Below, piece after piece: positions 968-32,540 of a stretch of 33,748 nt of DNA; the stretch's first letter is position 1, and each line of letters starts with the position of its first letter. The notes under the pieces are model-generated. The model was not told the DNA's origin and made no database searches. It saw only the letters and a list, made by a program, of their open reading frames with translations. A program made the translations under genes and the position numbers. Source of the DNA: Gemmatimonadota bacterium (lineage in GTDB: Bacteria > Gemmatimonadota > Gemmatimonadetes > Gemmatimonadales > Gemmatimonadaceae); NCBI GenBank assembly GCA_947463135.1, contig CANHTA010000014.1, forward strand, positions 1-33,748, in the 5' to 3' direction.

Positions 968-1114
968 GGGCACGCCTCTGGCCCTTGGGACCTCCGTGAG
1001 GACCCGGCACCCATTCATGGCGATGTGCCAATCAGGAGCGGGCGTGATCGCCATGTCGGCATTCCGCGAGGCATCTATGGCGCAGTGCGAACGTGGCAGT
1101 GCACTTTCAAGGGT

Positions 1115-1546
1115 ATGCGCCGTTCACGTTCGTTACGCCTTCTGCTGCTGACGCCCTTCTGGGCGCCACTCGCCGCCGCCCCTCGTCTGCACGACGTGTG
1201 GGCCGGCACCGCCATCGCTGTAAACGGCGGCGCCATGCGCGGTGACCTTGAGATGTTCGCCGGCAAGGCGCCCAACACCACCTTCGTGGAGTTGGCGCAG
1301 CGCAACGACGCCCCGGGCGCCGTGCGCAGCTGGCGGGTACGATACGGCACGTGCGCGAAGCCCGGTGAGGTATTCGGCGACGCCGCCGCGTACCCCACCA
1401 TTCGCATCGGCAAGGAGGGCAAGGGCGTGGGCACGGTGACGCTGCGCCTCGCCCTCCCCGACACCGGTGGATTTCATGTGGCCGTAACCGCATCACCACG
1501 CGACCCGCGCCCCGTGGCGTGCGGCGATCTCGTGCTCGAGGACTAG
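1115..1546 (+). CDS. Small secreted protein of unknown function
   Basis: This 143-residue protein has a basic start, a leucine-rich core and an Ala-X-Ala-like cleavage region, which together look like a Sec signal peptide; the mature part would begin near residue 25. I chose ATG 1115 because the signal peptide starts there; an upstream GTG at 1025 would add a 30-residue non-signal extension. Two cysteines (YGTCAKPG and VACGDL) flank a beta-rich stretch and may form a disulfide. The spacing (G-T-C, YP, a G-rich strand, then ACGDL) recalls CHRD or Cu/Zn-SOD-like secreted domains, but metal-ligand histidines are missing, so no function is assigned. The gene ends back to back with the converging operon: its TAG (1544-1546) directly abuts the stop of the minus-strand ORF. 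Confidence 0.7.
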   Translation: MRRSRSLRLLLLTPFWAPLAAAPRLHDVWAGTAIAVNGGAMRGDLEMFAGKAPNTTFVELAQRNDAPGAVRSWRVRYGTCAKPGEVFGDAAAYPTIRIGKEGKGVGTVTLRLALPDTGGFHVAVTASPRDPRPVACGDLVLED

Positions 1547-1801
1547 CTAAGTCCCGGCCGCCGCGGCGGCAGCCACCGAGTCCGCACGCGCGTCCTCGAT
1601 GGCTTCCTTGGCGAGTTCCTGCTTGAGCCGACCCATCTGTGTGAGTCCGATGCGACGGCCGATCCCCGTGGGATCGACGCCGTACTCGGCGGGGAGCACG
1701 GCGATCACGACCAGCACCACCGCGATCACCACGGCAATGACCGACGCGCGCCGCAGCGACGCGAGGCTTGGCCCCTCGGGGATGTGAGACGGAGCGGTCA
1801 T
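1547..1801 (-). CDS. Membrane-anchor half of a split 'transmembrane anchor protein'
   Basis: This 84-residue protein has one transmembrane helix (about residues 18-37) followed by the motif LPAEYGVDPTGIGRRIGLT, then a charged amphipathic tail and an Ala-rich end. From memory, that motif is the N-terminal signature of the 'transmembrane anchor protein' found beside Cus/Czc-type RND pumps and HupE-like proteins. In those proteins a beta-rich domain follows on the same chain; here that domain is a separate upstream ORF (1801-2235). ATG 1801 overlaps the upstream TGA (TGATG), implying translational coupling; a GTG three bases earlier is also in frame. Last gene of the metal-efflux operon. Biochemical role unknown. 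Confidence 0.8.
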   Translation of the reverse strand: MTAPSHIPEGPSLASLRRASVIAVVIAVVLVVIAVLPAEYGVDPTGIGRRIGLTQMGRLKQELAKEAIEDARADSVAAAAAAGT

Positions 1802-2235
1802 CACATCTTCTTGAGCGCGGAGAACTGCCCGCTCGCCTTCACCGTCACGGTGACCGGCTGCTCACCGGTGTTGCGCCACGACCAGCCGTGCACCCCATCG
1901 AACACCGCTTCGATGCTGCCCTTCTCGCCCTTCGACGAGCCGCGCTGATAGATGTGCGCCTTCACGCTGGGATCGGTGGGCACCTCGCCATGCAGGTTGT
2001 AGCCGACTTCGGCGCCGTTGGTAGACCACTCGAAGGTGGCCTTCTCGCCCTTCTTCATCACAAGCTTCACCTCGATGCGCTTGGCCGGCGCGATGGTGAC
2101 GGTCATCGAATCGCGCTTCGCCTGCGCAGCGACGGTTGCTGCGACATTGGAGAGTGACACGGCCGGCAGCGCGGCCGGTGACGACATGGAGAGCGACACC
2201 GGGAGGACCATCAGCCGGGAAAGGAGTGCGATCAT
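1801..2235 (-). CDS. Exported beta-rich half of a split 'transmembrane anchor protein'
   Basis: This 144-residue protein has an N-terminal hydrophobic stretch (about residues 2-30) that looks like a signal peptide or signal anchor, then a beta-rich domain. Segments such as KRDSMTVTIAPAKRIEVKL, KKGEKATFEWSTNG, DGVHGWSWRNTGEQPVTVTV and a Lys-rich end match, from memory, the C-terminal domain of the 'transmembrane anchor protein' of heavy-metal RND operons. The protein probably sits in the periplasm beside the pump. It is coupled to the next ORF by a 1-base stop/start overlap and lies 9 bp after the HupE-like gene. A separate signal sequence here and a separate membrane anchor downstream suggest real fission rather than a frameshift. 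Confidence 0.8.
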   Translation of the reverse strand: MIALLSRLMVLPVSLSMSSPAALPAVSLSNVAATVAAQAKRDSMTVTIAPAKRIEVKLVMKKGEKATFEWSTNGAEVGYNLHGEVPTDPSVKAHIYQRGSSKGEKGSIEAVFDGVHGWSWRNTGEQPVTVTVKASGQFSALKKM

Positions 2236-2244
2236 AACGGAACC

Positions 2245-2949
2245 TTAGGCTTGTGTGGAGAAGTAGCCCGTGAGCTGGTAGCCCACGAGCAGGAGACCGG
2301 CCACCAGCAACAGCATGTTGACCGTAAAACCGCTTCGGAGAAACGACGACGACCGCCGCCAGTAGCTCATCGCGAGAAGCACCACGGTAAGCGCGAGCAT
2401 CTGACCGACTTCAACGCCCACGTTGAACGCGAGCAGATTTTGCACGAGCCCCTCGGGGTCCATGTCGAAGTCGAGCAGCTTGGTGGCGAGGCCAAAGCCA
2501 TGGAACAGGCCAAACACCAGCGTCGCGGCCCGAGGGTTCGGCTGCACGCCAAACCACTTCTGAAACGCGCCCACATTGTCGAGCGCCTTGTACGCGACCG
2601 AGAACCCGATGATCGCGTCGATGAGGTACGGACTCACGCTGATCTTTGTGAGGACGCCCACGATGAGCGTACTCGAATGGCCCACCGCGAAGAGCGTGAC
2701 ATACGTAGCGATGTCGCGCACGCGGTACAGGTAGAAGATCACCCCGCACAGGAACAGGATATGATCGTAGCCGGTAACCATGTGCTTGGCGCCGAGGTAG
2801 AGGAACGGCACCAGACGTACCCCGAAGGTTTCCTGGATGTAGCCCTTGTCCCCGACGGAAACTCCGTGCGCGAGCAGCGCGCTCGGCAGAGTACTGAGCA
2901 TGGCCGCGGCGAGGAGGGGCGCCCAGCGCGCCCAACGTTCACGCGTCAT
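2245..2949 (-). CDS. HupE/UreJ-family membrane protein in metal-efflux operon
   Basis: This 234-residue integral membrane protein has an N-terminal signal-like segment ending in LLAHG, then about six hydrophobic helices. Family motifs are GYDHILFL, VGHSST, FGLFHGFGLA and FNVGVEVGQ; conserved His, Asp and Glu in these positions are typical of the HupE/UreJ_2 family, which is linked to Ni, Co or other metal transport. Start 2949 was chosen because its ATG overlaps the pump gene's TGA (ATGA, 2946-2949); a longer ORF to 2994 exists but would lie inside the pump gene. In related operons such a protein accompanies Cus/Czc pumps. The metal handled cannot be read from the sequence. Confidence 0.85.
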   Translation of the reverse strand: MTRERWARWAPLLAAAMLSTLPSALLAHGVSVGDKGYIQETFGVRLVPFLYLGAKHMVTGYDHILFLCGVIFYLYRVRDIATYVTLFAVGHSSTLIVGVLTKISVSPYLIDAIIGFSVAYKALDNVGAFQKWFGVQPNPRAATLVFGLFHGFGLATKLLDFDMDPEGLVQNLLAFNVGVEVGQMLALTVVLLAMSYWRRSSSFLRSGFTVNMLLLVAGLLLVGYQLTGYFSTQA

Positions 2950-5900
2950 ATCGCCGCCTCCGTGGTCGGCACGTCGCGCGCACCGTACAGCCAATAGAGT
3001 GCCGGCAAGACGATCATGTTGAGCACCGTGGCCGAGAGCAGGCCACCAAGGATGACGATGGCCATAGGGGTCTGCAGCTCGTTCCCGGGCTCGCCTCCGC
3101 CGAAGGCGAGGGGGATAAGCGCCAACCCCGCCGTGAGCGCCGTCATCAGAATCGGAGACAGACGCTCAAGAGAGCCGCGCGTGATGGCCTCCGCGAACGG
3201 CACACCCTCCGCGAGCAACTGGCGATAGTGCGCGACGAGCAGAATGCCGTTGCGCGTAGCGATCCCGAACAGCGTCACGAAGCCCACGAGTGATGCGATG
3301 CTCACCACTCCCCCGGTCAGCAACACCGCCACCACGCCCCCGATGAGCGCGAGCGGTAGGTTCGCCATCACCAGGCCGGCGGTCCGCGCGGAGCCAAACT
3401 CACCGTAGAGCAGCAGGAAAATAGCCGCCACCGACAGCAGCGAGAGCGCCAACAGCGCGCGCGTGGCCTCCGCCTGCGCCTCGAATTGCCCACCGTACTC
3501 CACGAAGTACCCTGGCGGGAGCGTTACCCCCGCGCGCACCGCGCGCTCGATGTCCGCCACGGTGCTGCCGAGGTCCCGGCCAGCGACGTTGGCCTGCACC
3601 ACGATCTTGCGCTGCACGTTCTCGCGAGAAATGGTGTTGGGGCCACGGTCAACCGTTACGCTCGCAAGCTGTGACAGCGGTACATGCTGGCCTGTGGGCG
3701 TGTCGAACGAAACCGCCGCAATGGCCTCAGCATTGAGGCGGTACGCCTCCGGGTAGCGTACAACGAGATCGACGCTGCGCCCCTCTTCGAGCACCTGCGA
3801 AACCGCTTCGCCGTTCAGTGCCACGTCGATGGCGTCGGCGAGTTGCCCCACTGTCATGCCGTACCGCGCGAGCGCCGCGCGGTCGGCCGTGATGCGGAGC
3901 TGCGGCACATCGGACTGTTGTTCGAGCTGCAGGTCCGCCACGCCGGGGACGCCCGCCATCACGTCGCGAATCTGCGTGCCGATCTGCCGGAGCTGATACA
4001 AGTCCGGCCCGAACAGCTTCACCGCGATGTTCGCCCGTGTGCCCGACAGCATGTGGTCGATGCGATGCCCGATGGGCTGTCCGATGGTGACGTTCGTGCC
4101 GGGGATCGCCGTGAACTCGTTGCGGAGTTCCTCAAACAGCGCCTCCTTGTCGGCATCGTCGCGCAGCGTGACGTCGATTTCTGCCGCATTCACGCCTTGC
4201 GCGTGCTCGTCGAGCTCGGCCCGCCCCTGCCGACGATCCGTGTTGATCACCGCAGGTTTGGACTTGAGGATCTGCTCCACCCGCAGACCAATCATGTTCG
4301 ACTCCTCAAGCGACGTGCCGGGGACGGTGACCACGGAGACCGTAAGCGCCCCTTCGTTGAACTCCGGCAGGAATGCGGAGCCGAGGATGGGAATGGCCGC
4401 CATGCTCAGGAAGAGGGCGATCACGGCGCCACTGAGCACACGTTTGGGGTGCGCCAGCACCGGCGTGAGCACGCGGGCATACCGCGCCTTGAGCCACACC
4501 ACGAGGCGGCTTTCCTCTTCGCGCCGCACTGCCTTGGAGTTCGGCAGCAGGTACGCGCACAACACCGGGGTAACCGTCACCGCCACGAGGAGCGAAGCGA
4601 GAATGGACACCACGTAGGCGAATCCGAGCGGGCGCAGCAGGCGCCCCTCTACACCGCCAAGGAAGAACAAGGGGATGAACACCACGATGATAATGAGCGT
4701 GGCGTTCACGATACTCGCCCGAATCTCCTTCGATGCATCGTACACCACGCGTAGGGCCGGCTGTTGCTCGGCGGCGGGGCGACGATAATTCCCCTTGAGC
4801 CGACGAAACACATTCTCCACGTCGATGATGGCATCGTCTACCAGGGCACCGATAGCGATGGCCATGCCGCCCAGCGTCATGGTATTGATGCTGATGCCGA
4901 GCAGCTGCATGGCGAAGATGGCCACGACGAGCGAGAGCGGAATGGCCACGAGGGAGATGGCCGTCGCCCGCAGGTTCCACAGGAACAGGAAGAGCACGAC
5001 CACGACGAGCACGGCGCCATCACGCAGCGCCTTCACCACGTTGTCCACCGCAACCCGAATGAAGCTCGCCTGCCGGAAGAGTTCCGCGTGCACCTTCATG
5101 CCGGCCGGCAATGTGGCTTGAATGGTCGCGAGTTCCCGCTCGATACGCTCCGTGAGTTCCAAGGTGTTCGCACCCGGCTGCTTCTGCACCGCAAGCACCA
5201 CACCGGGCTGCGCGTTCACACTGCCGTCGCCGAACGTGGGAGCCATACCCACCGTCACATCGGATACCTGCCCCAGCGTGACCGGCGTACCACCACGCAC
5301 GGCAACAACCGTACTGGCGATTTCCGCCACCGACTGCACACGGCCGATGCCGCGCACCACGTATTCCTGCCCGCGATCCATGTACACGCCGCCCGACGCG
5401 TTGGCATTCGAGCCGCGCGCCGCGCGCACGACCTGCTCGAGCGATACACCGGCCATCATCATGCGCGCTGGATCAGCGAGCACCTGATACTGCTTCACGG
5501 CTCCACCGATGGGGATCACTTGCGCCACACCGGGCACCGCAAGCAGGCGACGGCGGATGGTCCAATCCGCCACCGTGCGCAGCTCCGTTGGCGACTGCGT
5601 GCCGGTAAGCCCGATCATGAGGATCTCGCCCATCACACTCGACACGGGCGCCAATACCGGTGCGGAGATACCCGTGGGGAGTGCCGCCGCCACCGTCTGC
5701 AGCTTCTCTGCAACGATTTGCCGCGCGCGGAAGATGTCCGTTCCCCAGTCGAACTCGACCCACACCACCGAGATGCCCTGCGCCGTGGACGAGCGCACGC
5801 GGCGCACACCCGTGGCGCCATTCACCGACGTTTCGATGGGGAACGACACCAACGCTTCGACTTCTTCCGGCGCCATGCCGTGAGCTTCGGTAAGCACCGT

Positions 5901-6041
5901 CACCGTTGGCGCCGTGAGATCGGGGAACACATCCACCGGCATACGCCACGCGGTGTAGGCACCGCCGATCAGCATGAGCACGGACGTGGCGAGCACGATG
6001 ACGCGATTGACCAACGCCCACGCGATCAAGCGATTCAACAT
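2946..6041 (-). CDS. Heavy-metal RND efflux pump, inner-membrane subunit (CusA/CzcA family)
   Basis: This 1031-residue protein has full RND length: one N-terminal helix, a large periplasmic loop (about 35-335), a cluster of helices (335-500), a second loop (560-860) and a C-terminal helix cluster. Signatures are MPVDVFPDLTAPTVTV (34-49), GALVDDAIIDVENVF (398-412, the central-helix acidic region of the proton relay), FLPEFNEGALTVS (568-580) and GHRIDHMLSG (658-667), where the methionine lies near the position of a substrate methionine in CusA. It forms the proton-driven trimer that pushes metal cations through the adaptor and TolC partner. Its start lies 7 bp after the adaptor stop, and its end overlaps the HupE-like gene by ATGA. 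Mono- or divalent specificity is undecided, so no symbol is given. Confidence 0.95.
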   Translation of the reverse strand: MLNRLIAWALVNRVIVLATSVLMLIGGAYTAWRMPVDVFPDLTAPTVTVLTEAHGMAPEEVEALVSFPIETSVNGATGVRRVRSSTAQGISVVWVEFDWGTDIFRARQIVAEKLQTVAAALPTGISAPVLAPVSSVMGEILMIGLTGTQSPTELRTVADWTIRRRLLAVPGVAQVIPIGGAVKQYQVLADPARMMMAGVSLEQVVRAARGSNANASGGVYMDRGQEYVVRGIGRVQSVAEIASTVVAVRGGTPVTLGQVSDVTVGMAPTFGDGSVNAQPGVVLAVQKQPGANTLELTERIERELATIQATLPAGMKVHAELFRQASFIRVAVDNVVKALRDGAVLVVVVLFLFLWNLRATAISLVAIPLSLVVAIFAMQLLGISINTMTLGGMAIAIGALVDDAIIDVENVFRRLKGNYRRPAAEQQPALRVVYDASKEIRASIVNATLIIIVVFIPLFFLGGVEGRLLRPLGFAYVVSILASLLVAVTVTPVLCAYLLPNSKAVRREEESRLVVWLKARYARVLTPVLAHPKRVLSGAVIALFLSMAAIPILGSAFLPEFNEGALTVSVVTVPGTSLEESNMIGLRVEQILKSKPAVINTDRRQGRAELDEHAQGVNAAEIDVTLRDDADKEALFEELRNEFTAIPGTNVTIGQPIGHRIDHMLSGTRANIAVKLFGPDLYQLRQIGTQIRDVMAGVPGVADLQLEQQSDVPQLRITADRAALARYGMTVGQLADAIDVALNGEAVSQVLEEGRSVDLVVRYPEAYRLNAEAIAAVSFDTPTGQHVPLSQLASVTVDRGPNTISRENVQRKIVVQANVAGRDLGSTVADIERAVRAGVTLPPGYFVEYGGQFEAQAEATRALLALSLLSVAAIFLLLYGEFGSARTAGLVMANLPLALIGGVVAVLLTGGVVSIASLVGFVTLFGIATRNGILLVAHYRQLLAEGVPFAEAITRGSLERLSPILMTALTAGLALIPLAFGGGEPGNELQTPMAIVILGGLLSATVLNMIVLPALYWLYGARDVPTTEAAI

Positions 6042-6048
6042 GCGCGCC

Positions 6049-7560
6049 TCAATGCTCGTGACCGTGCGCGGGCACGGCCGTGGAAAGCGATGCCAGCCGC
6101 ACCTGATACGCGGCGCCGGTCACCACGCGCTCGCCCGCGCGGATGCCGTCACGCACGAGGACGCGGCCGCCGTCGCGAGCGCCGAGGGTGAGCACGCGCT
6201 TCTCGAAGGTCTCGCCTTCCACCTGCACGTAGGCGATTGGGCGACCATCTTCATCGAGCACGGCGGAACCGGGTACAGTCACCCCCGACGTGCGCTGCCC
6301 GTTGCGCACGGCTACGCGCGCACCGGCGCCAATTTTCAGCGTACCGTCGCTGTTCGCCACCTCGAGCAACAGCGGTACCGAGCGCGACACGCTGTCGATC
6401 ACGCTGCCGAGGGAGACCACGCGGCGCGCCGTGTACACGCGCTCAGAGCCTTCCACGCGGAACTCCACGCCGGACGTACGGGATACCGTGGCCGCCTGCG
6501 CGGCAGGCACGTTCACGCGGAGCCACACGACAGACGGATCGACGACTGTGAAGAGCAGCGTCCCTGCCTCGACCCGACTGCCCGGTGTCACGCGCCGGTC
6601 GGCAATCACACCCGCGACGGGCGCGCGCACGGCAACGCGTCCCCCCAACAACTCACCGCCACTGTAGCCAGCGAGCGCCTCACGCGCCGCCGCGAGACGA
6701 ATCTCGGCCTCGTGCACCCGACGCTGCGGCACGGCCTCGACCGCATAAAGCCGCACCGCGCGCGCATGTTCGTCTTCCGCCTCAGCCAGGCGTGCGCGGG
6801 CTTCAGCATAGGCTGCGCTCCCGGCATCGCCGAGGGACGGCATCAGAAGTGCCAGCGTCTGTCCGCGCGACACGCGCATGCCGGGTGACGGCGCATTGGC
6901 CACACCCGACGCGTCGACGAGTCCCGAGATGGGAGCACTCACTTGCGCGAAGCGACCGGCGGCCGGTTCGATTACGCCGGGCGCCTCGAACGTGCCCGCC
7001 AGCTCACCATCGGTCGCGAACGCTGAGCGGAACCCCGGGGTCTTCCACGCCTGCTCCTTGAGAAAGGAGATCCCGCTCTCGGCGCCGCCGGAGTCGCGCG
7101 GGGCGGCCGCCGCATTCGCGTAGACCGTCAGCCCCGGCACGTTGAGACGGTCGCGTGCCTGCGGGCTCTCCACACGAATGACGAGATCGTACACGCCTGG
7201 GGTGGTGAACGTAGGGCTCGGCCCATAGATGCCCGGCGAACGCGGGGCGTCCTGCACCACCACCACCGGCGCTCCGCCACCACGCGGCGTGAACGTCAGG
7301 GTGATACGTCCCGAGCGCAGCGGCGCGAAATCCGTGAGATCGGTGAGATGCACGGCGAACTTGTCGGGCGCGCCCACGATGAGCGCGGGATGCTCCATGA
7401 AGAGCTCCGTGCTGTCGGTCCACTGCGTGATGGCGCCTCCCGCCGGCTCGTCAGCCGACACGGCGGCGTTGCTCGCGCTGTTCGATGCACCGCACGCGGC
7501 CAGCACGGCAGCGGCCACACTCACGGCAGCGATCGTTTGGAATAGAGAGGGGGCAGTCAT
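6049..7560 (-). CDS. RND efflux periplasmic adaptor lipoprotein (CusB/CzcB-like)
   Basis: This 503-residue protein starts with a lipoprotein signal peptide (AAVLAACG, lipid Cys at 23). A beta-rich Ig-like domain follows (about 48-147: TELFMEHPALIVG, GVYDLVIRV), of the kind found in metal-efflux adaptors. The KEQAWKTPG segment (168-176) leads into the lipoyl half-domains (about 200-240 and 305-345), with a short alpha-hairpin (245-298) between them that should dock with TolC. The C-terminus is His-rich (HGHEH), a possible metal-binding tail. The gene overlaps the TolC-family gene by ATGA (7557-7560) and precedes the pump by 7 bp, as expected for a tripartite system. Confidence 0.92.
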   Translation of the reverse strand: MTAPSLFQTIAAVSVAAAVLAACGASNSASNAAVSADEPAGGAITQWTDSTELFMEHPALIVGAPDKFAVHLTDLTDFAPLRSGRITLTFTPRGGGAPVVVVQDAPRSPGIYGPSPTFTTPGVYDLVIRVESPQARDRLNVPGLTVYANAAAAPRDSGGAESGISFLKEQAWKTPGFRSAFATDGELAGTFEAPGVIEPAAGRFAQVSAPISGLVDASGVANAPSPGMRVSRGQTLALLMPSLGDAGSAAYAEARARLAEAEDEHARAVRLYAVEAVPQRRVHEAEIRLAAAREALAGYSGGELLGGRVAVRAPVAGVIADRRVTPGSRVEAGTLLFTVVDPSVVWLRVNVPAAQAATVSRTSGVEFRVEGSERVYTARRVVSLGSVIDSVSRSVPLLLEVANSDGTLKIGAGARVAVRNGQRTSGVTVPGSAVLDEDGRPIAYVQVEGETFEKRVLTLGARDGGRVLVRDGIRAGERVVTGAAYQVRLASLSTAVPAHGHEH

Positions 7561-8972
7561 CGATTCGATTCAGTAGTGGGGAAGAGCGAGAGACCGACCG
7601 CGCGCGCGAGTTCGGCGCGGCGCAGCGCGATGTCGGTGGTCAAGATCAACACGGCGAGCTCCGTCTCCTGCCAAGCGCGCACGGCCTCTAGCCACTCGGC
7701 CAGCGTGATCTCACCCTCAGCATACGCGGCCTGCACCGCCCGTAACGCGAGGCGCGATTCAGCACCAACGAACGGCTGGAGGGCGGCATGTTCCGCTTCG
7801 CTGCTGCGAAGGGCGCTCAGGGCGTCGAGCACGTCTCGCGACACCCGACGTCTCGCCACGTCGGCATCGGCGTCCATCTGGCGGGCGGTGGCATCGGCCG
7901 CGGAAACGGCACCGGCGCGGCGGTCGAGCAGCGGAAGCGGGAGGGAGAATCCTGCCACAAAACCGTAAAGCGAAACCCCTGACATGCTGGCGCCACTTTG
8001 CACTCGCTCACCCTTGTAGCCGGCGGAAATCGCAGGCAACGGGATGCGCTCGCGTGACGCGAGGCGCGCATCGGCCTGCGCCGCTTGGGCTTCGCGCTGC
8101 GCGATCAGCACATCGGCGCGATTCGCGAGTGCACGCGCGACCAGCGAGTCACCCGCATCAGGCAGTGCGCGCAGGACGGCGGTGGCCGACCCAAGCGCCG
8201 ACGACAGCAGCGCGCTGAAGGCGGTTCCGGTGCTATCGGATGCAGAGACCATGGGTACGGGAACCTGCGCGGTAGGCAGCCCGGTGATCAGCGCCAGCCG
8301 CTCGAGCGCTGCGCGCGCCTGCACGGCGGCTTCGGCGCGGCGCGCCGCGTAACGACCGGCCTCAAGGCGAAGGCGTCGACCGGCATACCCGGCGACATCG
8401 CCGTCACGCACCCGTTCATCGGTGACGCGCTGCGCCTCGCTCGCGGTACGAAACACGGCGTCGGCGAGCTGCACCCGATGCGCCGCACTGACCGCGTCCA
8501 CGTACGCGCGGAGTACCGCCGCATCGAGTGCCTGCGTAGCGGCGGTCAGACGCGCTTCGGCCGCTTCGCGGCGAAACCGTGCCGCAGCGACGCGGGCCCC
8601 GCGCTGGCCAGCGATGTCGAGCGGCCACTCCATCTGGGCGATGTCCTGCGCATTGGACTGCCCGGCGCGCGACGTCTGCTCGTGACCGTAGTTGAGCGTG
8701 GGATTGGCGAGGGCGGCGGCTTGTCGCTCGCGCGCCGCGGCGGCCGATACCGCTTCGCGTGCCGCACGGATGGCGGGATCGAGGCGGATGGCGGCGGCGC
8801 GGACATCCGCGAGCGCGCGACCATCCTGGGCCCGGAGTGTCGATGCGACGACAGCTATTAAGAGGAATGCGGCGGCATGCAGATGCCGGCGCCGAAAACA
8901 CAACGAGACCACGAGAACGAGGGCTGACGTTCCCGAGAGTACTGCGACGTCGGCCGCATGCGCGAGCCGCAT
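7557..8972 (-). CDS. TolC-family outer-membrane factor of metal efflux system
   Basis: This protein of up to 471 residues has two long helical, Ala/Arg/Glu-rich halves with the alternating pattern of outer-membrane efflux proteins (two OEP repeats). Segments include NPTLNYGHEQTSRAGQSN, EWPLDIAGQRGARV and FSLPLPLLDRRAG. A signal peptide is evident around RRRHLHAAAFLLIAVVASTLRAQ, which lies about 27-50 residues into the longest ORF. The real start is therefore probably GTG 8912 or TTG 8903 rather than ATG 8972. It forms the outer-membrane exit channel. It is the second gene of the operon, downstream of the His-rich ORF and overlapping the adaptor gene by 4 bases. Confidence 0.9.
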   Translation of the reverse strand: MRLAHAADVAVLSGTSALVLVVSLCFRRRHLHAAAFLLIAVVASTLRAQDGRALADVRAAAIRLDPAIRAAREAVSAAAARERQAAALANPTLNYGHEQTSRAGQSNAQDIAQMEWPLDIAGQRGARVAAARFRREAAEARLTAATQALDAAVLRAYVDAVSAAHRVQLADAVFRTASEAQRVTDERVRDGDVAGYAGRRLRLEAGRYAARRAEAAVQARAALERLALITGLPTAQVPVPMVSASDSTGTAFSALLSSALGSATAVLRALPDAGDSLVARALANRADVLIAQREAQAAQADARLASRERIPLPAISAGYKGERVQSGASMSGVSLYGFVAGFSLPLPLLDRRAGAVSAADATARQMDADADVARRRVSRDVLDALSALRSSEAEHAALQPFVGAESRLALRAVQAAYAEGEITLAEWLEAVRAWQETELAVLILTTDIALRRAELARAVGLSLFPTTESNR

Positions 8973-9055
8973 CCCTCGGGGACGGTCGCGCAGGGCGCGA
9001 CCGCGTACACGTCACGCGGACGTGCGCGGAGGGCGCACGACGCGCGACGTCGAGG

Positions 9056-9493
9056 TCAGCAGGTCGGAGGAGCTCGCAGGGTGGGTGGAGGCCCAGTGTC
9101 CGGCGCAGGGCGCGCCAGGGCCACGGAGTCCCAGCGCGTGAGCGGCGGCAGTTTGTGTGTCGCCAACGGCATCACCACCGCGGCCGGGGAATTGATCACC
9201 GGGGCCTCCAACCCGTGTCGGGTGTCGACGCGGCCGGTGGGGACCGACTCGACGCGGGCATGATCGTGCTGATGACTGTGCTCCTGACCGGCCAACGTCG
9301 CAGCGCTACCCGTCAGGGGAACAGCATCCGGCACATCGTGATCATGGTGGTCGTCGTCGTGCTCCCCAAGGTGATGCGCCTCGGCCCCATGCGCGTGCGC
9401 CATTCCGTGCGCCACGGCCAAGCCGGGCGACGCGAGGCTGGCGACCAGCGCCAGCAGGATGACGGTCCAGCGGGACCAGGAGGATCGGGCCAC
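9056..9493 (-). CDS. Histidine-rich exported protein leading the metal-efflux operon
   Basis: This 145-residue protein starts at GTG 9493, where a basic stretch and a hydrophobic core (WTVILLALVASLASPGLAVA) form a clear signal peptide; a longer ORF to 9547 adds residues ahead of it. The mature N-terminus is packed with His and acidic residues (HGMAHAHGAEAHH, HDDDHHDHD, HSHQHDHA), a metal-chelating composition. The C-terminus is Pro-rich (PAPDTGPPPTLRAPP). No named domain is recognised. It precedes the TolC-family gene on the same strand, so a role as periplasmic metal sponge or chaperone is a reasonable inference, not shown. A TATACA hexamer lies 8 nt before the GTG and could be the operon's -10 box. 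Confidence 0.7.
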   Translation of the reverse strand: MARSSWSRWTVILLALVASLASPGLAVAHGMAHAHGAEAHHLGEHDDDHHDHDVPDAVPLTGSAATLAGQEHSHQHDHARVESVPTGRVDTRHGLEAPVINSPAAVVMPLATHKLPPLTRWDSVALARPAPDTGPPPTLRAPPTC

Positions 9494-9568
9494 AGCGGAA
9501 ATGTATACCCACGACGGGGTGCGCCGCGCGAGTGCGACCGCGGTCAACGAGGAAACGGGTTCTCCGTT

Positions 9569-9610
9569 TGCAATGGCCCCTGCAGGGGTCGAAGCTGCAA
9601 CCTTCGGATC
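9569..9610 (-). pseudogene. tRNA 3'-half remnant (tRNA-Gln-like)
   Basis: An ungapped comparison with the 3' half of the intact tRNA-Gln (13973-14045) gives about 35 matches in 42 bases by eye. These cover the acceptor GCCCCT, the TCGAA of the T-loop, AACCTTC of the variable region and GATC of the anticodon arm. Some T-stem changes (CCAGG to GCAGG and CCTGG to GCTGC on the plus strand) look partly compensatory, so the source may have been a related tRNA rather than this one. The 5' half does not fold and no complete tRNA is present. It could be a relic of an old integration at a tRNA gene. Confidence 0.5.
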
Positions 9611-10109
9611 GGAACCTTCCTATACAGCGTCGCTTCCCTGGGATGTTTTGGTGGACTCGCTTGCAGATTCGGCCAACCGATTTTGCTCAACGGCAAAGCC
9701 GCGAATGCCAAGACGCAAACTACGCGCGTCTAGTGGAGAAGCGCGGCGGAGTAGGACAGCGCTGACGGCACGTCTGTTGTCCAAGGAAACATCACGCGGC
9801 CATCGGCGCTCAGCAGAGATAATGTCGGCATACCCCATTTGTTGAATCGGGCAACGGCGGCGCCGCCTCGACGGCCGGCCCAAATAGCGGAGACCAGAAG
9901 ACCACGACGAGGCCCCTGCCCTTCGCCAAGCCGCGCAGCGTATGGCGCTGACCATTGAGCGCAGCCCGACCGGCAGGGCGGCGAGTCGCCTCTCGAGATC
10001 AAGCAGATCGATTCACTGGTCCGCATGAGAGGCCGCGACCGGGGCATCCTGATCGAGCACGGCTGTAGGCGAAGCGGTCAGTATCGTCACGAGCAGGGAA
10101 TGCCGCGGG
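9611..10109. other. Gene-poor stretch with probable decayed coding sequence
   Basis: No intact gene is recognised here. On the minus strand one frame (about 9730-10020) reads ICLISRGDSPPCRSGCAQWS, then FNKWGMPTLSLLSADGRV. The C-x3-C pair and the WG-M-PT strand loosely resemble thioredoxin-like redoxins. A neighbouring frame just upstream (10030-10100) reads a signal-peptide-like LLVTILTASPTAVLDQDAPVA. Together these suggest a frameshifted, truncated exported protein, but the match is weak. Nothing else is evident between the tRNA relic and the DUF4160 gene. Confidence 0.3.
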
Positions 10110-10349
10110 ATGCCGCAACGGTACCATCGTGAAGAGCCCTTTCGCTTGTTCTTCTTCTCGCGTGAGGAACCGCGGATGCACGTACATGTATCCCATCCGG
10201 ATGGCGAGGCCAAGTTCTGGCTTCAGCCAGAACTTGCCTTGGCGGAGTCGGTGGGATTATCGGCTCGTCAGCTTGCCGACGCTCAGGACATTGTCAATCG
10301 CCATACGGGAGAGGTCCGAGATGCCTGGATTCGCCACTTCGGCGCCTGA
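10110..10349 (+). CDS. DUF4160 family protein
   Basis: This 79-residue protein spans the whole family: an N-terminal FRLFFFSREEPRMHVHVSH strand pair, GEAKFWLQPELALAESVGLSARQL, and a C-terminal helix ending in the family-typical pattern I-V-x(n)-W-x-x-H-F. The conserved H-V-H and KFWL residues are present. Members are usually encoded directly beside DUF2442 genes, as here (29-base overlap), and the pair is suspected to be a toxin-antitoxin-like module; its activity is not established. ATG 10110 matches the usual family start. It lies between two tRNA-like remnants, so it is probably mobile cargo. Confidence 0.85.
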   Translation: MPQRYHREEPFRLFFFSREEPRMHVHVSHPDGEAKFWLQPELALAESVGLSARQLADAQDIVNRHTGEVRDAWIRHFGA

Positions 10350-10599
10350 GGTCACGAACGTGTCCCGGCACGGCTTCTGGCTGCTGCTGGATGACGCAGA
10401 GTTGCTCGTGCGTTTCAGCGACTTCCCATGGTTCCGACAGGCCACCATCGACGCCCTCACCCAGGTGGAGCGGCCGAGTCCCGATCACCTGTACTGGCCA
10501 CAGCTGGACGTGGACCTCTCCGTCCGCTCGATCCGCTCGCCGGCCGACTTCCCGTTGGTTTCCCGCGCGCTTTCAAACGACACCGCCGGCGAAAACTAG
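10321..10599 (+). CDS. DUF2442 family protein
   Basis: This 92-residue protein shows the family landmarks FPWFRQATIDAL, SPDHLYWPQLDVDLSVRSI and the closing PADFPLVSRAL. ATG 10321 is in a different frame from, and 29 bases inside, the DUF4160 gene, giving the standard paired layout. The longer frame back to 10129 is only the shadow of DUF4160. The family is small and of unknown activity, often thought to be the partner or antitoxin of DUF4160. A hairpin that is a copy of the tRNA-Gln terminator follows 33 bases after the stop. A truncated second DUF2442 sequence lies at 11622-11770. Confidence 0.85.
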   Translation: MPGFATSAPEVTNVSRHGFWLLLDDAELLVRFSDFPWFRQATIDALTQVERPSPDHLYWPQLDVDLSVRSIRSPADFPLVSRALSNDTAGEN

Positions 10600-10627
10600 G
10601 CATCCGCGTCGGCTGTGACGGGCAACG

Positions 10628-10683
10628 ACAAACGCCGCCATCACTCGTAAGTGACGGCGGCGCTTGCGATGGCCCCTCCAGGT
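10628..10683. repeat. 56-bp direct repeat, left copy: tRNA-Gln 3' end plus terminator (attachment-site-like)
   Basis: These 56 bases match 13931-13986 at 54 positions by direct reading. They include the perfect-arm hairpin (10633-10662) and the last bases of tRNA-Gln (CCCCTCCAGGT). The following bases to about 10735 still align loosely with the rest of the tRNA (CTGAT, ACGCTCTG) but are badly decayed. A displaced tRNA 3' end in direct orientation is the expected mark of a tRNA-targeted integration. No integrase gene is present between the copies. Confidence 0.8.
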
Positions 10684-10819
10684 AGCGTGGTGCCGACTGC
10701 TGATTCGGGAAACATCACGCTCTGTGCGCAACAGGCCTTTGTGATTAATCTCCGCGACACCAGGGCGGTTTTTTGGAAAATGCGCGCATTTCCCGGTCTA
10801 AGAAAAAGAGACGACGCCA

Positions 10820-11479
10820 TTGCCGAACAAGTTCGTATTCGCTGATGAGGCGGGGAATTTCGACTTTTCACGTAAGAACGGCGCAAGCCGCTACTTCCTT
10901 CTTACCACCATTACCACAGTCGATTGCTCTGTAGGTGAAGCAATTCTGAGTCTGAGGCGCGACTTGGCGTGGAAGGGCCTTGATGTCGGGGATGGTTTCC
11001 ACGCCACTGAAGACCAACAGGCCGTACGTGACGCCGTTTTCGGTCTGCTCGCTCAGCATAGCTTCCGTGTCGATTCAACGATTCTTGAGAAGCCCAAGGC
11101 CCAGCCGCATCTTGCCGCTGACGAACACGCGTTCTTCAAGCTGGCTTGGTATCTGCACTTCAAGCACGTAGCCAGGGACATTGTGCAACCGGGCGATGAA
11201 CTACAGATCGTCTCTGCGTCGCTCGGGACGAAGAAGAAGCGTGCCCAATTCTGCGCGGCTGTTGAAGAAGTTGCCAAACAAGTCGTGCCGCTCAACACAA
11301 AATGGCGGGTGAGTACCTGGTCAGCGGCATCAGACCCATGTCTTCAGGCGGCCGACTACTGCTGCTGGGCAATTCAGCGCAAATGGGAACGGGCGGATTT
11401 GCGCTCACACGGGCTGATCGCCGGGAAGATCCGCACGGAGTTCGATTGCTGGCGAACAGGCACTACCAATTTCTACTAG
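10820..11479 (+). CDS. DUF3800 family protein (predicted RNase H-like nuclease)
   Basis: This 219-residue protein carries the DUF3800 hallmarks: FVFADEAGNF (5-14, the acidic D-E motif on the first strand), DGFHATED (58-65) and CLQAADYCCWAI (174-185, the conserved Gln and Asp near the end). The family is predicted to adopt an RNase H-like fold and is common in phage, plasmid and defence contexts; the activity is mostly unproven. The start is TTG 10820: an in-frame stop lies at 10799-10801, the family begins right at this strand, and an AAAGAG stretch about 10 nt upstream may serve as ribosome-binding site. AT content just upstream is higher than in neighbouring genes. The gene lies between the two 56-bp repeats. 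Confidence 0.85.
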   Translation: MPNKFVFADEAGNFDFSRKNGASRYFLLTTITTVDCSVGEAILSLRRDLAWKGLDVGDGFHATEDQQAVRDAVFGLLAQHSFRVDSTILEKPKAQPHLAADEHAFFKLAWYLHFKHVARDIVQPGDELQIVSASLGTKKKRAQFCAAVEEVAKQVVPLNTKWRVSTWSAASDPCLQAADYCCWAIQRKWERADLRSHGLIAGKIRTEFDCWRTGTTNFY

Positions 11480-11621
11480 GCACGAACGCGAAAGACGGCC
11501 GACTAGCCTGCCCGAGATGGGAAGGCAGAGCCCAGGGGCTCTTATCGCCGGCCGCCTCACTTTACGCTTCTGAACAATAAGACGCTCGCGAAGTCCCGCA
11601 AGTTTCAAAGATAGAAGCAAC
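11480..11621. other. Intergenic, no gene seen
   Basis: The bases between the DUF3800 stop and the DUF2442 relic hold no recognisable gene or strong terminator. The frames are short and show no family motif. The stretch is probably degraded cargo. Confidence 0.5.
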
Positions 11622-11772
11622 ACCGCACGTGGACCTGTCCGCCCGTTCGATCCGCCGACCAGCGGAACTTCCCTTGGTCTCCAAGGCGCTTGCAGACGAC
11701 ACGTCGGTTGCGCTACCGGGAATCGCCACCGTTTTGCTCACCAAAACACAAACACCGCCGTTCACGTAAGTG
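11622..11772 (+). pseudogene. Truncated second DUF2442 gene
   Basis: One frame reads VDLSARSIRRPAELPLVSKA, then LADDT. Against the intact DUF2442 end (VDLSVRSIRSPADFPLVSRA, then LSNDT), 18 of 26 aligned residues are identical by eye, and the changes are mostly conservative. The N-terminal two thirds are missing, and no start codon or ribosome-binding site precedes the fragment. The frame runs on to a TAA inside the hairpin at 11755-11780. The divergence shows that this is a separate old homolog rather than a recent copy. Confidence 0.7.
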
Positions 11773-11780
11773 ACGGGCGG
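11755..11780. repeat. Degenerate third copy of the tRNA-Gln terminator hairpin
   Basis: The core (ACCGCCG, TTCACGTAAGTGACGG, GCGG) resembles the hairpins at 10633-10662 and 13936-13965 but has an internal mismatch pair. Upstream bases AAAACACAAAC are shared with the 13.9-kb copy, as is GGAATCGCC further left. Its position shortly after a DUF2442 tail mirrors the arrangement at 10.6 kb. No tRNA sequence follows it. Confidence 0.6.
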
Positions 11781-11954
11781 CGCGCGCAAATTTCTCGCGC
11801 CGGCTTGTCCTGAACGAGCGGTCCCGCGGCAAAGGCTCCGAGTTGGGCCGTGGCACGGTGACGATGCCCTTCTACAGGGAGCGGCCGCCCTGGCGAACGG
11901 GGCGATTCTCGATAGAGGACATCGCCGGTAAGGCGACAGCGCCGGACTGCGCGC

Positions 11955-12024
11955 TCAACTAACCCCGTAGTTGACAAATCCCTAGCACCGCCCAATACTC
12001 AACTAACCACATAGTTGAGGAGAG
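11955..12024 (+). promoter_or_regulatory. BlaI promoter with two palindromic operators
   Basis: Operator 1 (11955-11974) has arms TCAACTA and TAGTTGA with a 6-nt spacer. Operator 2 (11998-12019) has arms CTCAACTA and TAGTTGAG with a 6-nt spacer. Centres are 44 bp apart. Between them lie TTGACA (11971-11976) and AATACT (11994-11999) with 17-bp spacing, a good sigma-70-type promoter. Operator 1 overlaps the -35 box and operator 2 follows the -10 box and touches the AGGAG ribosome-binding site (12018-12022). This is the expected arrangement for autorepression by a BlaI/MecI/CopY dimer; binding itself is inferred. Confidence 0.85.
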
Positions 12025-12027
12025 ACG

Positions 12028-12414
12028 ATGGAGCCGGTTTCGCTGGGCGAACGCGAATTAGACATCATGACGGCGCTCTGGACTGGGGGTCCCGGCACCG
12101 TGGCGGAGGTGCGGGACCGACTCCCCGTCACGCTCGCATACAACACGGTGCTCACCATCCTCCGGAACCTCGAGAGCAAGGGGCTGGTCGACCACCATCC
12201 GGAAGGTCGGGTTTTCCGATACTTCCCGGTCGTGAGTCAGGACGCCGTGAAGGGCAACGCGGTCTCGCGGCTGGTCGACAAGTTTTTCGGAGGCTCACCG
12301 GTGAGCGCAATGACGCATCTGCTGGAGCACGAGCAGCTCGGGCCGGACGATTTGAAAGCGCTGCATGCGCACCTCAACAATCGATTGGCGGACATGGAGA
12401 AGACGCAGCCATGA
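12028..12414 (+). CDS. BlaI/MecI/CopY-family transcriptional repressor
   Basis: This 128-residue protein has the N-terminal winged helix (about 5-75: LGERELDIMTALW, YNTVLTILRNLESKGLVDH, GRVFRYFPVVS) and a C-terminal dimerisation helix region (FFGGSPVSAMTHLLEHEQL). Family repressors bind palindromes and are inactivated by cleavage through a partner M56 protease. ATG 12028 has a strong AGGAG 6-10 nt upstream. The stop overlaps the start of the partner gene by ATGA (12411-12414). Two palindromes upstream point to autoregulation. No beta-lactamase or copper gene adjoins the pair, so the regulated target is unknown. Confidence 0.93.
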   Translation: MEPVSLGERELDIMTALWTGGPGTVAEVRDRLPVTLAYNTVLTILRNLESKGLVDHHPEGRVFRYFPVVSQDAVKGNAVSRLVDKFFGGSPVSAMTHLLEHEQLGPDDLKALHAHLNNRLADMEKTQP

Positions 12415-13781
12415 TCAGTGCACTCGTACTCTACGCCCTTCTGGTCAGCGTGCCCATTGGCGCGGTGGCGCGGCTTCTCGAATGGGGACTACGGCGCTTA
12501 CGGCGCCCAACACGCTTTGCCTGGGCCGGCGCGATGCTGCTCATGCTGGGCATCCCAGTGACGGGCGTGGTGTTGAGCGCGCCCGCGGAAATAGCGGACT
12601 CGCCCAGCTACGATCTCCTTCGCGCGCTGCCGTTCGCCGAGTTCAACGAAGCGTCGCGGCCGTACTCGAACACGGCAACCATCTCTGCGTTCGCCCCTGA
12701 GTTGCTGCAATCGCGTCTACTCGATGCGTTCAGCACCGTGATAAGCGCCACACAGGAATTCGATGGGCTGCTCCTCGGTCTCTGGGCGACCTGCTCCGCC
12801 TTTCTGCTCGGCATGACACTGTACGCCATGTCCGAGGCGCGACGCCTGGTCTTGGGGCTTGCGACGCAGGTGATCGACGGTACGACGGTGCTTGTCTCTG
12901 AAGCGCTGGGTCCGTCTGCCGCCGGCGGGGCCGCCGGCACCATCATCCTGCCGCGCTGGGTGCTCACCCTCGATCCGTCGCTCCGTGACCTCATCCTCCG
13001 CCACGAGAAGGAGCACCTCGCCGCCCGCGATACGGCGCTGCTGACGACGGCCATGTTCATGCTCGTGGCAGTCCCGTTGCATCCGGTCCTCTGGTGGAGC
13101 TGGCGCAGGCTCCGTCTAGCTATTGAGGTCGACTGCGACGCACGGGTATTGCGCGCTCAGGACAGCCCAAAGACGTATGGTCAACTCTTGCTGCTGATGA
13201 CGCACCATCGCTCCATCTCACCGCTCGCTGAGCGCCCACTGTTGTCGCTGGCTGCACCATTTCACCCGTACGCCTCACAACTCAAGCAGAGGATTGACGC
13301 AATGACAACACGCTCGACAAAGTCCCCCTCCACAACCCTCGCGACGATGGCCGCCGGCGCCTTGGCCGCAACCATACTGCTGGGCGCCGTGCCCGCGCCA
13401 CCGTCCCCCGGTACTCCAGCAGCGCCGAGCGCATCCGCCGCTGGGGCGACCGTACGCATCACCAAGCTGGGGTTGAAGGGGATTGAGGTCGACAATCGCG
13501 GAGAAATGGTCGGCGAGATTCTTATCTATGGCAGCGGTCCGGTGAAAGTCGGCATCGGCACCAATAGTCCGCAGGTCGTGGCCGACACCATTCGCCTGAG
13601 AAATCTTCCGGCGTTCACCGCGGACGTCACCGATGGCGATGTCCACATTGAGCTCCGCGGCGCCGGTGAAATCGAGATCGGCGGTGATGTCACCGGTGGT
13701 CCGGCCGTGAGCCTCAGCGCCAGTGGCCGGCATCTCGTGCTGTTGAAAGGTGGAACCGGTATTCAGACCATGCGGCCGTAA
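12411..13781 (+). CDS. BlaR1/MecR1-like M56 membrane metalloprotease with unusual C-terminal domain
   Basis: This 456-residue membrane protein has N-terminal helices (from residue 1 and about 35-55), a helix near 120-140, then the zinc protease core. The core carries HEKEH at 198-202 and EVDCDARVL, whose Glu 239 is a likely third ligand. A further helix lies at about 308-327. Beyond it are a Pro/Ala linker and a beta-rich, probably periplasmic domain (about 345-456). The penicillin-binding sensor domain of BlaR1 is absent. It should sense a signal outside and cleave the BlaI-like repressor. A longer frame beginning at 12015 is only the shadow of the repressor gene. A strong terminator follows at 13824. 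Confidence 0.9.
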   Translation: MISALVLYALLVSVPIGAVARLLEWGLRRLRRPTRFAWAGAMLLMLGIPVTGVVLSAPAEIADSPSYDLLRALPFAEFNEASRPYSNTATISAFAPELLQSRLLDAFSTVISATQEFDGLLLGLWATCSAFLLGMTLYAMSEARRLVLGLATQVIDGTTVLVSEALGPSAAGGAAGTIILPRWVLTLDPSLRDLILRHEKEHLAARDTALLTTAMFMLVAVPLHPVLWWSWRRLRLAIEVDCDARVLRAQDSPKTYGQLLLLMTHHRSISPLAERPLLSLAAPFHPYASQLKQRIDAMTTRSTKSPSTTLATMAAGALAATILLGAVPAPPSPGTPAAPSASAAGATVRITKLGLKGIEVDNRGEMVGEILIYGSGPVKVGIGTNSPQVVADTIRLRNLPAFTADVTDGDVHIELRGAGEIEIGGDVTGGPAVSLSASGRHLVLLKGGTGIQTMRP

Positions 13782-13823
13782 GGGAGCGTCGCAAGAATTC
13801 CTCTACGGTCATCGCACAGGAGA

Positions 13824-13860
13824 GCCCGCCAGCGCGCATCGCCGGCGGGCTTTTTCTTCT
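13824..13860 (+). terminator. Rho-independent terminator of the BlaI/M56 operon
   Basis: Arms GCCCGCC (13824-13830) and GGCGGGC (13844-13850) are followed directly by TTTTTCTTCT. It lies 42 bases after the M56 gene stop, on the correct strand. Confidence 0.88.
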
Positions 13861-13930
13861 GTAGTGGGACCCTTCGGGCGGGGATTCTCTGACAACATGG
13901 AACAAGGAATCGCCCCGCTTCCCCGAAAAC

Positions 13931-13986
13931 ACAAACGCCGCCATCACTCGTAAGTGACGGCGGCGCTTGCAATTGCCCCTCCAGGT
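13931..13986. repeat. 56-bp direct repeat, right copy (tRNA-Gln 3' end and terminator)
   Basis: Partner of 10628-10683 (54 of 56 identical). It spans the tRNA terminator (13936-13965) and the last 13-14 bases of tRNA-Gln. Here the tRNA is intact, so this is the functional copy, equivalent to the attachment side that restores the tRNA. Confidence 0.8.
13936..13965 (-). terminator. Terminator of tRNA-Gln
   Basis: On the minus strand, CGCCGCCGTCACT and AGTGATGGCGGCG pair around a TACG loop (one G-T pair), followed by TTTGTGTTTT. It lies 7 bases after the tRNA 3' end. Confidence 0.85.
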
Positions 13987-14045
13987 TTCGAACCTGGAAC
14001 CTTCTGATCCAGAGTCAGACGCTCTGCCAGTTGAGCTAAGGGGCA
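13973..14045 (-). tRNA. tRNA-Gln (anticodon CTG)
   Basis: It folds into a full cloverleaf. The acceptor is TGCCCCT with AGGGGCA and discriminator A; the D-stem is GCTC with GAGC. The anticodon stem TCTGA with TCAGA holds loop CTCTGGA (anticodon CTG, reading CAG). The T-stem is CCAGG with CCTGG around TTCGAAA. The CCA end is not encoded. It is transcribed in the same direction as glnS and the Uma2-family gene, 48 bp downstream of the latter, and is followed by its own terminator. Confidence 0.97.
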
Positions 14046-14093: not shown

Positions 14094-14690
14094 TCACGGC
14101 TGGACGGTAGTGCCCCCGACGCCGTCCTCGTCCGTTCCGAGTATCGCCAGCATCAGCGCCGGCACGTCAACCTCGAGACGCTCCGCCGCCCCCGCCGGAT
14201 GCCACACCAGCCGCTCAGCACAGATCTCCGGGCGGTCCACATCAGGCGTCCAGCGCTCGATGAGTTGCGAGTCCAGGTCCACCAGCCAACACTCAATCGC
14301 CGCGCGCTGATAGCGTGGCCGCTTCCGCAGGCGATCGGCCCGCGCCGTACTCGGCGAAAGCACCTCGACCGCGAGATACGGCGGTGGGGGCGCTGCGCGG
14401 CCTCGTACGACGTCGAGGCCCACCGGGGCGATCACGAGCACGTCCGGCTGCATCAGCGTGAACGGATCCAGCACCACATCGTACTGCGAGAACATCATCT
14501 CGCCCACGCGCTGACGCTGCACATAGTCGCCGAGCATGAGCCCAAGTCGGGAGACCGCGCGTTGGTGCGCGAACCGCGGCATCGGGCTCACCAGCAGCTC
14601 TCCATCCACGGTCTCATAGCGCTGGTGTGGATCGCTGGGCAACGCCCAGACGTCCTCCACCGACCAGCGACGCGCGTGCGCGATTGGCAT
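14094..14690 (-). CDS. Uma2-family (DUF820) predicted endonuclease
   Basis: This 198-residue protein shows the Uma2 pattern of the PD-(D/E)XK nuclease fold: RYETVDGELLVSPMP (N-terminal helix and strand), QPDVLVIAP (catalytic Asp), PPPYLAVEVLSPSTARADR (catalytic Glu), and RYQRAAIECWLVDLDSQ. ATG 14690 is preceded by GGAGGAG with 6-nt spacing; two TTG codons just upstream are less likely starts. The gene begins 31 bp after the glnS stop and ends 48 bp before tRNA-Gln on the same strand. Uma2 proteins are multiplied in some phyla and their roles are largely unknown; no DNA target is implied here. Confidence 0.85.
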   Translation of the reverse strand: MPIAHARRWSVEDVWALPSDPHQRYETVDGELLVSPMPRFAHQRAVSRLGLMLGDYVQRQRVGEMMFSQYDVVLDPFTLMQPDVLVIAPVGLDVVRGRAAPPPPYLAVEVLSPSTARADRLRKRPRYQRAAIECWLVDLDSQLIERWTPDVDRPEICAERLVWHPAGAAERLEVDVPALMLAILGTDEDGVGGTTVQP

Positions 14691-14721
14691 CAACAACTCC
14701 TCCCCGGCTATCGGTGGTAAC

Positions 14722-16458
<1,737 letters not shown>

Positions 16459-30150: not shown

Positions 30151-32540
<2,390 letters not shown>

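Follow-up and report, generated by a model that had tools for sequence, protein, structure and literature searches.

A partly decayed array of small integrative units, probably installed in trans, at a tRNA-Gln gene of a Gemmatimonadota bacterium

The stretch of DNA analysed here, which we call the window, comprises 33,748 nucleotides (nt) from a Gemmatimonadota bacterium (assembly GCA_947463135.1, contig CANHTA010000014.1) and carries a tRNA-Gln(CTG) gene preceded by displaced copies of the end of that gene together with its terminator. From sequence comparisons we consider it probable that small integrative units, themselves non-autonomous, form an array here that has partly decayed, and that they would have been installed at the tRNA gene in trans by the integrases of larger islands. 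An earlier note, made from the letters of the window, had proposed site-specific integration of tandem cargo at this gene and a possible mobilisation in trans. The arrays that we found in relatives fit the first proposal, and the islands of relatives that carry a recombinase beside tRNA-Gln fit the second.

Three units precede the tRNA-Gln gene of the window

The intact tRNA-Gln(CTG) gene, taken as the target (attB), was located by ARAGORN at 13973-14045 on the minus strand. Its terminator hairpin and spacer (13928-13972, minus strand; fold of -34.7 kcal/mol) lie within the attachment block, and the hairpin is followed on the tRNA strand by TTTGTGTTTT. The 3' half of the gene, nt 30-73 (to 14016, minus strand), was assigned to the last unit, because nt 30 is where the displaced copies of relatives stop. 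The displaced copies in the window, units 1-3, and their arms and genes are given on the plus strand. A 56-bp repeat at 10628-10683, identical at 54 of 56 positions (96.4%; blastn E 3e-21), contains the complete hairpin (fold of -33.7 kcal/mol) and ~17 nt of the tRNA 3' end. When 10600-10700 (101 bp) was used as a query against the window's own genome (3.55 Mb in 294 contigs, 91.5% complete), it matched itself and 13931-13986 only. The repeat thus occurs at two places, both of them here, rather than at many terminators, which rules out a common dispersed terminator.

The outermost displaced copy, a degenerate tRNA 3' half that has lost the strong hairpin, lies at 9565-9610 (82.6% over 46 bp, E 1.2e-7) and was matched independently by the junction model R1 described below. 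A third displaced copy, at 11742-11789, consists of the hairpin only, the tRNA half being lost (blastn 83% over 48 bp, E 1.4e-6; nhmmer 21.2 bits). Because this remnant separates the DUF3800 part from the BlaI/M56 genes, there are three cargo segments and not two: unit 1, the DUF4160-DUF2442 unit (9611-10627), whose type we call A; unit 2, a decayed DUF3800 unit (10684-11741); and unit 3, the BlaI/M56 unit that adjoins tRNA-Gln (11790-13972). If, as we infer, growth is polar, unit 3 would be the newest.

The earlier note had read the tRNA gene and the 56-bp repeat correctly, had placed the degenerate half within a few positions (9569-9610), and had delimited the DUF4160/DUF2442 segment as we do; having overlooked the hairpin remnant, it joined DUF3800 and BlaI/M56 in one segment and counted two segments where there are at least three. 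Its remark that the repeat reaches past the tRNA through the terminator is explained by the composition of the block, since each unit's attachment block is a tRNA 3' half plus terminator. It had also seen no integrase, and in a profile search the window's genome gave three matches to PF00589, none of them on the window's contig.

The attachment block recurs in tandem in relatives

The search with the tRNA-Gln block covered 61 genomes, and the genus set used below consists of 30 Gemmatimonas genomes. Several genomes of the same genus hold multiple copies of a ~90-bp block (query ~3-92), made up of the terminator and tRNA nt 30-73. In other Gemmatimonas genomes, copies of this block follow one another beside tRNA-Gln at intervals of 0.7-5.5 kb, and the tandem copies are 76-95% identical to that of the window (blastn). 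The complete genome G028 has three copies within 4.4 kb ahead of tRNA-Gln. In G006, contig C7 carries five copies and a hairpin-only remnant and contig C46 two more; the two contigs share 838 bp at 99% identity within one unit, where C7 ends and C46 starts. Gene content at the locus varies between species, and gene orientation differs among units. No relative with the same genes in the same order but without the repeat was seen in the loci that were read, although no search was dedicated to this.

Where the end of a displaced copy could be read, the exact terminus CAGAGTC was present in 17 of 21 copies, followed by G[AC]TC in 14 of 21; the copies at window 10622, L045 7846 and L046 8109 have no readable end and were left out of these counts. 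Unlike the displaced copies, the tRNA gene itself continues with AGACG after CAGAGTC. The exchange region may be these ~7 bp, CAGAGTC, in the anticodon loop.

Two copies in G006 are unusual. In one (L034, oriented, 7902-8016), the core is duplicated internally, with ACCTTCTGATCCAGA present twice, possibly through misaligned strand exchange. In the other (L034, oriented, 14797-14895), the terminator is not of the usual type; it is near-identical to that of the G001 tRNA-Gln (L051, oriented, 6714) and looks as if the unit had carried it from another host.

Conserved arms flank the block

Alignment of 20 displaced ends gave a consensus right arm (P') with two palindromes of the type TTGGC-N-GCCAA. 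Scored on the same 20 sites on which the motif had been defined, the palindrome was present at 9 or 10 of its 10 positions at 12 sites, against 0.6% of 4571 control stretches. To the left of the block, the motif GAACNNGGAATC (one substitution allowed) was found at 20 of 36 sites, always at a distance of 22-33 bp; its random rate was 76 in 4000 stretches, from which att sites had not been excluded. When the 36 sites were classed by hand according to their left context, the motif was present at 20 of the 25 sites preceded by a unit or island and at none of the others, namely five tRNA-Gln genes without a detected unit (L048-L052), five sites adjoining a metal operon and one site of unknown left context. 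The window has it as GAACAAGGAATC at 13900-13911, the right end of unit 3. At L033 8858, L035 8648, G009 41595, L042 14004 and L044 2086 the motif is doubled, 25 bp apart; these may be paired arm-binding sites.

The hairpin has been kept. Its fold was -21.7 kcal/mol or lower at 33 of 34 readable sites (no shuffled controls were included), the exception being window 9574; the 34 sites include the five tRNA genes without a detected unit, and hairpin-only copies and L038 7325 were left out. Some stems vary on both sides, for example GCCGCCGTCAC/GTGATGGCGGC versus GCCGCAACCAC/GTGGCTGCGGC.

We built a sequence-only junction model of 121 positions, R1, that joins the tRNA half to the P' arm, using 20 of 21 sites of other genomes and excluding the window; L046 10323, a displaced site without a P' arm, was left out. 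R1 matched window 9573-9702 (33.3 bits, E 1e-9, model positions 2-117), where ARAGORN found no tRNA gene. This match includes the P' arm of unit 1 at 9653-9702, whose TTG..CAA-type palindromes are imperfect (nhmmer 9.3 bits; best palindrome 8 of 10 positions). Over the 30 genus genomes, R1 found 23 displaced junctions that reach model position 88 or beyond, in 9 genomes: the 20 training sites and three new ones (the window, G012:C5:87 and G015:C5:151637). This count excludes tRNA-Gln(CTG) genes, the tRNA-Lys(CTT) matches G001:C33 and G021:C74, and, in G010, a displaced copy that covers less of the model (2-72, 33.6 bits) and has no tRNA gene at its place. Weaker rows (~27-32 bits, model 7-46 to 7-96) were not counted because the four that were fetched, from G028, G001, G021 and G025, all proved to be tRNA-Lys(CTT) genes. 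Since a tRNA-Lys(CTT) half scores up to ~32 bits, the weight of the window match rests on its reach to position 117 through the P' arm.

A candidate helper recombinase lies beside tRNA-Gln in two relatives

All that the 1.2-kb unit G006c has of a recombinase is a fragment, which adjoins an att copy. Used as a query, this fragment found intact frames in two of the 30 genus genomes, G006 (497 amino acids (aa), L035 7083-8576) and G009 (a 618-aa frame). Both end ~70-80 bp from the tRNA-proximal block and match phrog_1 integrases, and PF00589 was found at both places. In G009 the recombinase belongs to a 36.4-kb island between att copies at 31150 and 67595, which stands in tandem with a unit of type B (see below) and opens with the same P' arm as the units (34.1 bits, the site being among the training sites of the arm model). 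The island holds a metal-efflux operon, whose CusA-like protein is 37% identical to that of the window, and, on a first look only, a restriction-type gene block.

Both integrase-bearing islands also encode a 788-aa protein (L057:10758-13124 and L058:12320-14686), which is probably island backbone; in G009 it adjoins an RmuC-family gene, and the G009 copy had no Pfam, PHROGs or PADLOC match. At L046:10224-11719 (G021:C30), a displaced tRNA half that has no P' arm is found ~1 kb away from a frame with a PF00589 match. The query with the G006 recombinase had missed this frame, which suggests that integrases of another type use this target as well.

Unit families recur with the same ends and in different order

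Type A DNA occurs in eight genomes, the window's own (G000) and G028, G006, G005, G015, G012, G026 and G021. In all eight it occupies the right-hand end of the unit, also after other cargo, a position that would fit an addiction role. Type B, found in G005, G015, G017, G026, G006, G012 and G009 and in pieces in G028, encodes a helix-turn-helix (HTH) protein and a nucleotidyltransferase-like protein with a sub-threshold AbiEii match; PADLOC identified the G005 copies as PDC-M21A/B (4e-34 and 1e-52). Type B units can be aligned over their whole length: G005 3-1571 pairs with G015 3-1522, and G005 3-1519 with G026 3-1520.

In two close species the two families stand in opposite order before the tRNA gene, ...B-A-tRNA in G005 and ...A-B-tRNA in G015. 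The markers of these genomes are 93.9% and 95.4% identical, against 83.4% for their type A and 80.8% for their type B units. The marker tree groups G005 with G015 (98/98). The type A tree places G015 with G028, and a G005+G015 constraint was rejected (approximately unbiased test, p-AU 1.6e-5). Since the two genomes are grouped by their markers, type A was most likely acquired separately in G005 and G015, as judged from these trees. For type B, vertical descent with faster change may account for the divergence.

A model of unit insertion, and the alternatives

In a unit's attachment site, a left arm and the terminator hairpin would be followed by the 3' half of the tRNA as far as nt 30 and by a short stretch, within the anticodon loop, at which exchange would take place; the remaining part would be a P' arm with two TTGGC/GCCAA-type palindromes. 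A tyrosine recombinase from a large island with the same ends (that of G009, probably also that of G006) would act in trans, joining the unit's attachment site with the tRNA gene. Every arrival would restore an intact tRNA gene and terminator and shift older units outward. Insertion would be polar and the array would grow as an integron does, with the tRNA gene in the role of attI. Units 1-3 of the window would be an old, partly broken stretch without a helper.

A more far-reaching version of this model can be offered only tentatively. It would make the locus a working analogue of an integron, with tRNA-Gln as attI and the displaced half plus arms as attC, and with toxin-antitoxin (TA) and defence cassettes circulating as circles among Gemmatimonas by means of the integrases of resident islands; a second genus, represented by G088, would have its own version with a different arm.

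Several observations weigh against insertion of units in trans. Excised circles and present mobility are so far predictions of the model. The recombinase was matched in only two of the 30 genus genomes, and it was not found in the window's genome, which is 91.5% complete; no left end of the G006 island could be located within 19.9 kb. The left arm is missing at 5 of the 25 unit ends, and the window's units have lost arms or a tRNA half, as would be expected of decaying cis-mobilizable elements (CIMEs). Units could have been reordered by homologous recombination between the ~90-bp repeats, and because the type B tree keeps G005 with G015 (100/99), vertical descent may account for some of the pattern. 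The metal-efflux operon is less certain as a unit, since none of the five sites that adjoin it has a left arm.

Some of these points would suit a classical tandem accretion of CIMEs, in which full islands with their own integrases inserted serially and each decayed in place to an att-bearing remnant. The mechanism is known (PMC5704250, cited, like the other papers below, from an excerpt), and the recombinase fragment beside an att copy in G006c, the degenerate state of window units 1 and 2, and the missing left arms are all in keeping with it. We nevertheless regard it as unlikely, because independent decays are not expected to yield the same ends, whereas type B has the same compact extent from end to end across species with different neighbours; the arms, moreover, are still present at most unit ends. 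More improbable still appears a scenario in which related DNA was taken up and the arrays changed through RecA-type homologous recombination at the repeats, with no site-specific recombination of units. The similarity of the repeats between units would allow it, and the right end of type A after other cargo (G006e, G012a, G021a and G005b) resembles deletion fusions, but it does not account for the conserved arms on the two sides of the repeat or for their recurrence on an island that lies beside the tRNA gene and encodes an integrase. That the repeat is a chance similarity or an artefact of a dispersed terminator or REP-like (repetitive extragenic palindromic) sequence we regard as having next to no probability: the hairpin does resemble a strong intrinsic terminator, but the two matches in the window's genome are both here, the copies contain tRNA nucleotides, and the tandem copies of relatives sit at tRNA-Gln.

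Relation to known systems

The region is a variation on known tRNA-anchored additive islands and CIMEs and not a separate category. Additive flexible islands, with cassettes in varying number at a tRNA gene, have been described at tRNA-Lys in Ca. Methylopumilus, in Ca. Actinomarinales and as the flexible genomic island fGI1 of Alteromonas (PMC10872708, PMC7771536, PMC4119200), and in the first two, direct repeats of a piece of the tRNA mark the cassettes (PMC10872708, PMC7771536). The locus studied here resembles them in having the tRNA gene at one end as target, recurring tRNA 3' repeats and a content that varies between species; it differs from the islands as the excerpts describe them, which belong to other phyla, in its attP arms, the terminator within the repeat, ends held in common with an integrase island, and reordered unit families. 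CIMEs are integrase-less, att-flanked segments that are stacked at one site and helped by an element with a matching integrase (PMC5704250, in the part available). The units here are likewise att-flanked and without their own integrase, and the window's att sites are partly lost. CIMEs are decay products of integrative and conjugative or integrative and mobilizable elements, whereas here several species share type B units of ~1.5 kb whose ends are the same; G006c looks deletion-derived, and the compact recurring type B units do not.

Integron cassettes are small and TA-rich. Cassette arrays without an integrase, dependent on one in trans, are known as clusters of attC sites lacking integron-integrases (CALINs; PMC11389934, excerpt). 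Like CALINs, the array here has a cassette structure, no integrase of its own and a putative integrase in trans. It seems to differ from integrons in that its repeat consists of a tRNA half, terminator and arms and looks unlike attC, the recombinase found in relatives matches PF00589 and the phage-type integrases of phrog_1, and the orientation of genes in the units varies. Tycheposons are tRNA-anchored cargo elements of 4-200 kb with a tyrosine recombinase (PMC10872708, excerpt), whereas the units here are mostly shorter and have none, PF00589 being present in the G006 and G009 islands and without a match on the window's contig.

Among the literature matches listed, there was no report of such arrays in Gemmatimonas or with Gemmatimonadota as host, and none, so far as their excerpts go, of a conserved terminator-carrying site common to integrase-less units and an integrase island. 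For the 'tRNA cassette' islands, a class with loose limits, the locus supplies an attachment site described at the level of sequence, a candidate for the helper integrase, and a route to recognising minimal cassettes that carry no mobility gene. If every block arrives with a tRNA 3' half and a terminator of its own, this would explain why repeated insertion into a tRNA gene need not abolish its function. Should the units indeed be mobile in trans, comparable TA and defence stores, fed by islands elsewhere, may be escaping present annotation.

Cargo and neighbouring genes

The gene identities given in the earlier note were confirmed by Pfam. Unit 1 encodes DUF4160 (10110-10349, PF13711, E 8.2e-14) and DUF2442 (10321-10599, PF10387, E 2.3e-14; start picked by eye in the frame 10129-10599). 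Unit 2 encodes a DUF3800 protein (10820-11479, PF12686, E 8.7e-8; weak PADLOC match DUF3800_VII, E 1.1e-4) and contains, at about 11627-11702, what is left of another DUF2442 3' end (79% over 77 bp against that of unit 1). In unit 3, a BlaI-type repressor (Penicillinase_R, 12028-12414, PF03965, E 1.1e-29) is followed by a BlaR1-type peptidase M56 (12411-13781, PF05569, E 1.9e-14; start picked by eye in the frame 12015-13781), and both genes recur inverted in unit G019a at 68-75% identity. Other cargo in relatives includes an alpha/beta hydrolase, an alkylmercury lyase (MerB) and a DUF6036 nucleotidyltransferase with an HTH protein, and one cargo protein has a sub-threshold TsiV match. The cargo is in good part TA-like or defence-like, with metal resistance and regulators in addition. 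Directly behind tRNA-Gln, at window 14094-14696, lies a Uma2-type gene, of which the relatives' loci searched hold zero, one or two copies.

A heavy-metal efflux operon with its neighbours (1000-9564) is a probable further unit, less certain than the others; its genes we take to be CusA/CusB/TolC-like from the look of the proteins. The orthologous metal-efflux block of G015 lies between displaced junctions at G015:C5:151637-151740 and at 160.3 kb. As the G015 operon has a displaced junction on its far side too, the region may reach leftward to about 1 kb in the window, and its left limit is probably not at 9569, where the note had put it; with the extra hairpin copy, this makes a two-segment island confined to 9569-14045 insufficient. 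The left junction of the operon was not found in the window (R1 without filters, and alignment) or in G028 (L070, L087). We set aside the operon as a fixed left chromosomal anchor, as DNA of the cusB region is matched in 9 of the 30 genus genomes and the G015 operon stands between two junctions.

Arrays beyond the genus

The family set comprised 118 genomes, 8 of Gemmatimonas and 110 others. At least 11 of the 110 have two or more matches of at least 35 bits within 20 kb on one contig; tRNA-Gln(CTG) was confirmed in the fetched stretch for seven of these 11, three others were unfetched, and the fetched stretch of G159 contained no tRNA-Gln(CTG). For G073, G083 and G159, one PF00589 match lies within ~1.5 kb of a tRNA-half copy. 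A 20-bp displaced-junction word had no match in viral contigs and was found in 11 stretches of genome contigs, from nine Gemmatimonad metagenome-assembled genomes, one Nitrospira (L064) and one Phycisphaera (L067); the last two matches may be real, due to chance or contamination.

The genome G088, of another genus, carries a six-unit array, with six displaced copies ahead of tRNA-Gln (L088:4618-13169, G088:C150). Its cargo is TA-rich (MNT, HTH-like + Fic, SDR, RelE + HTH, HepT + MNT, and RelE), and its three PF00589 matches are all on contigs other than that of the array. Five of the six junctions read GTGGCTGA[AC]C[AG]GA. Because this junction word (at most one mismatch) was found in only 3 of 178 family genomes, the G088 arm is distinct. 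In the same array, TCTTCTGATC on the left and GACCAGAAGA on the right resemble inverted core sites.

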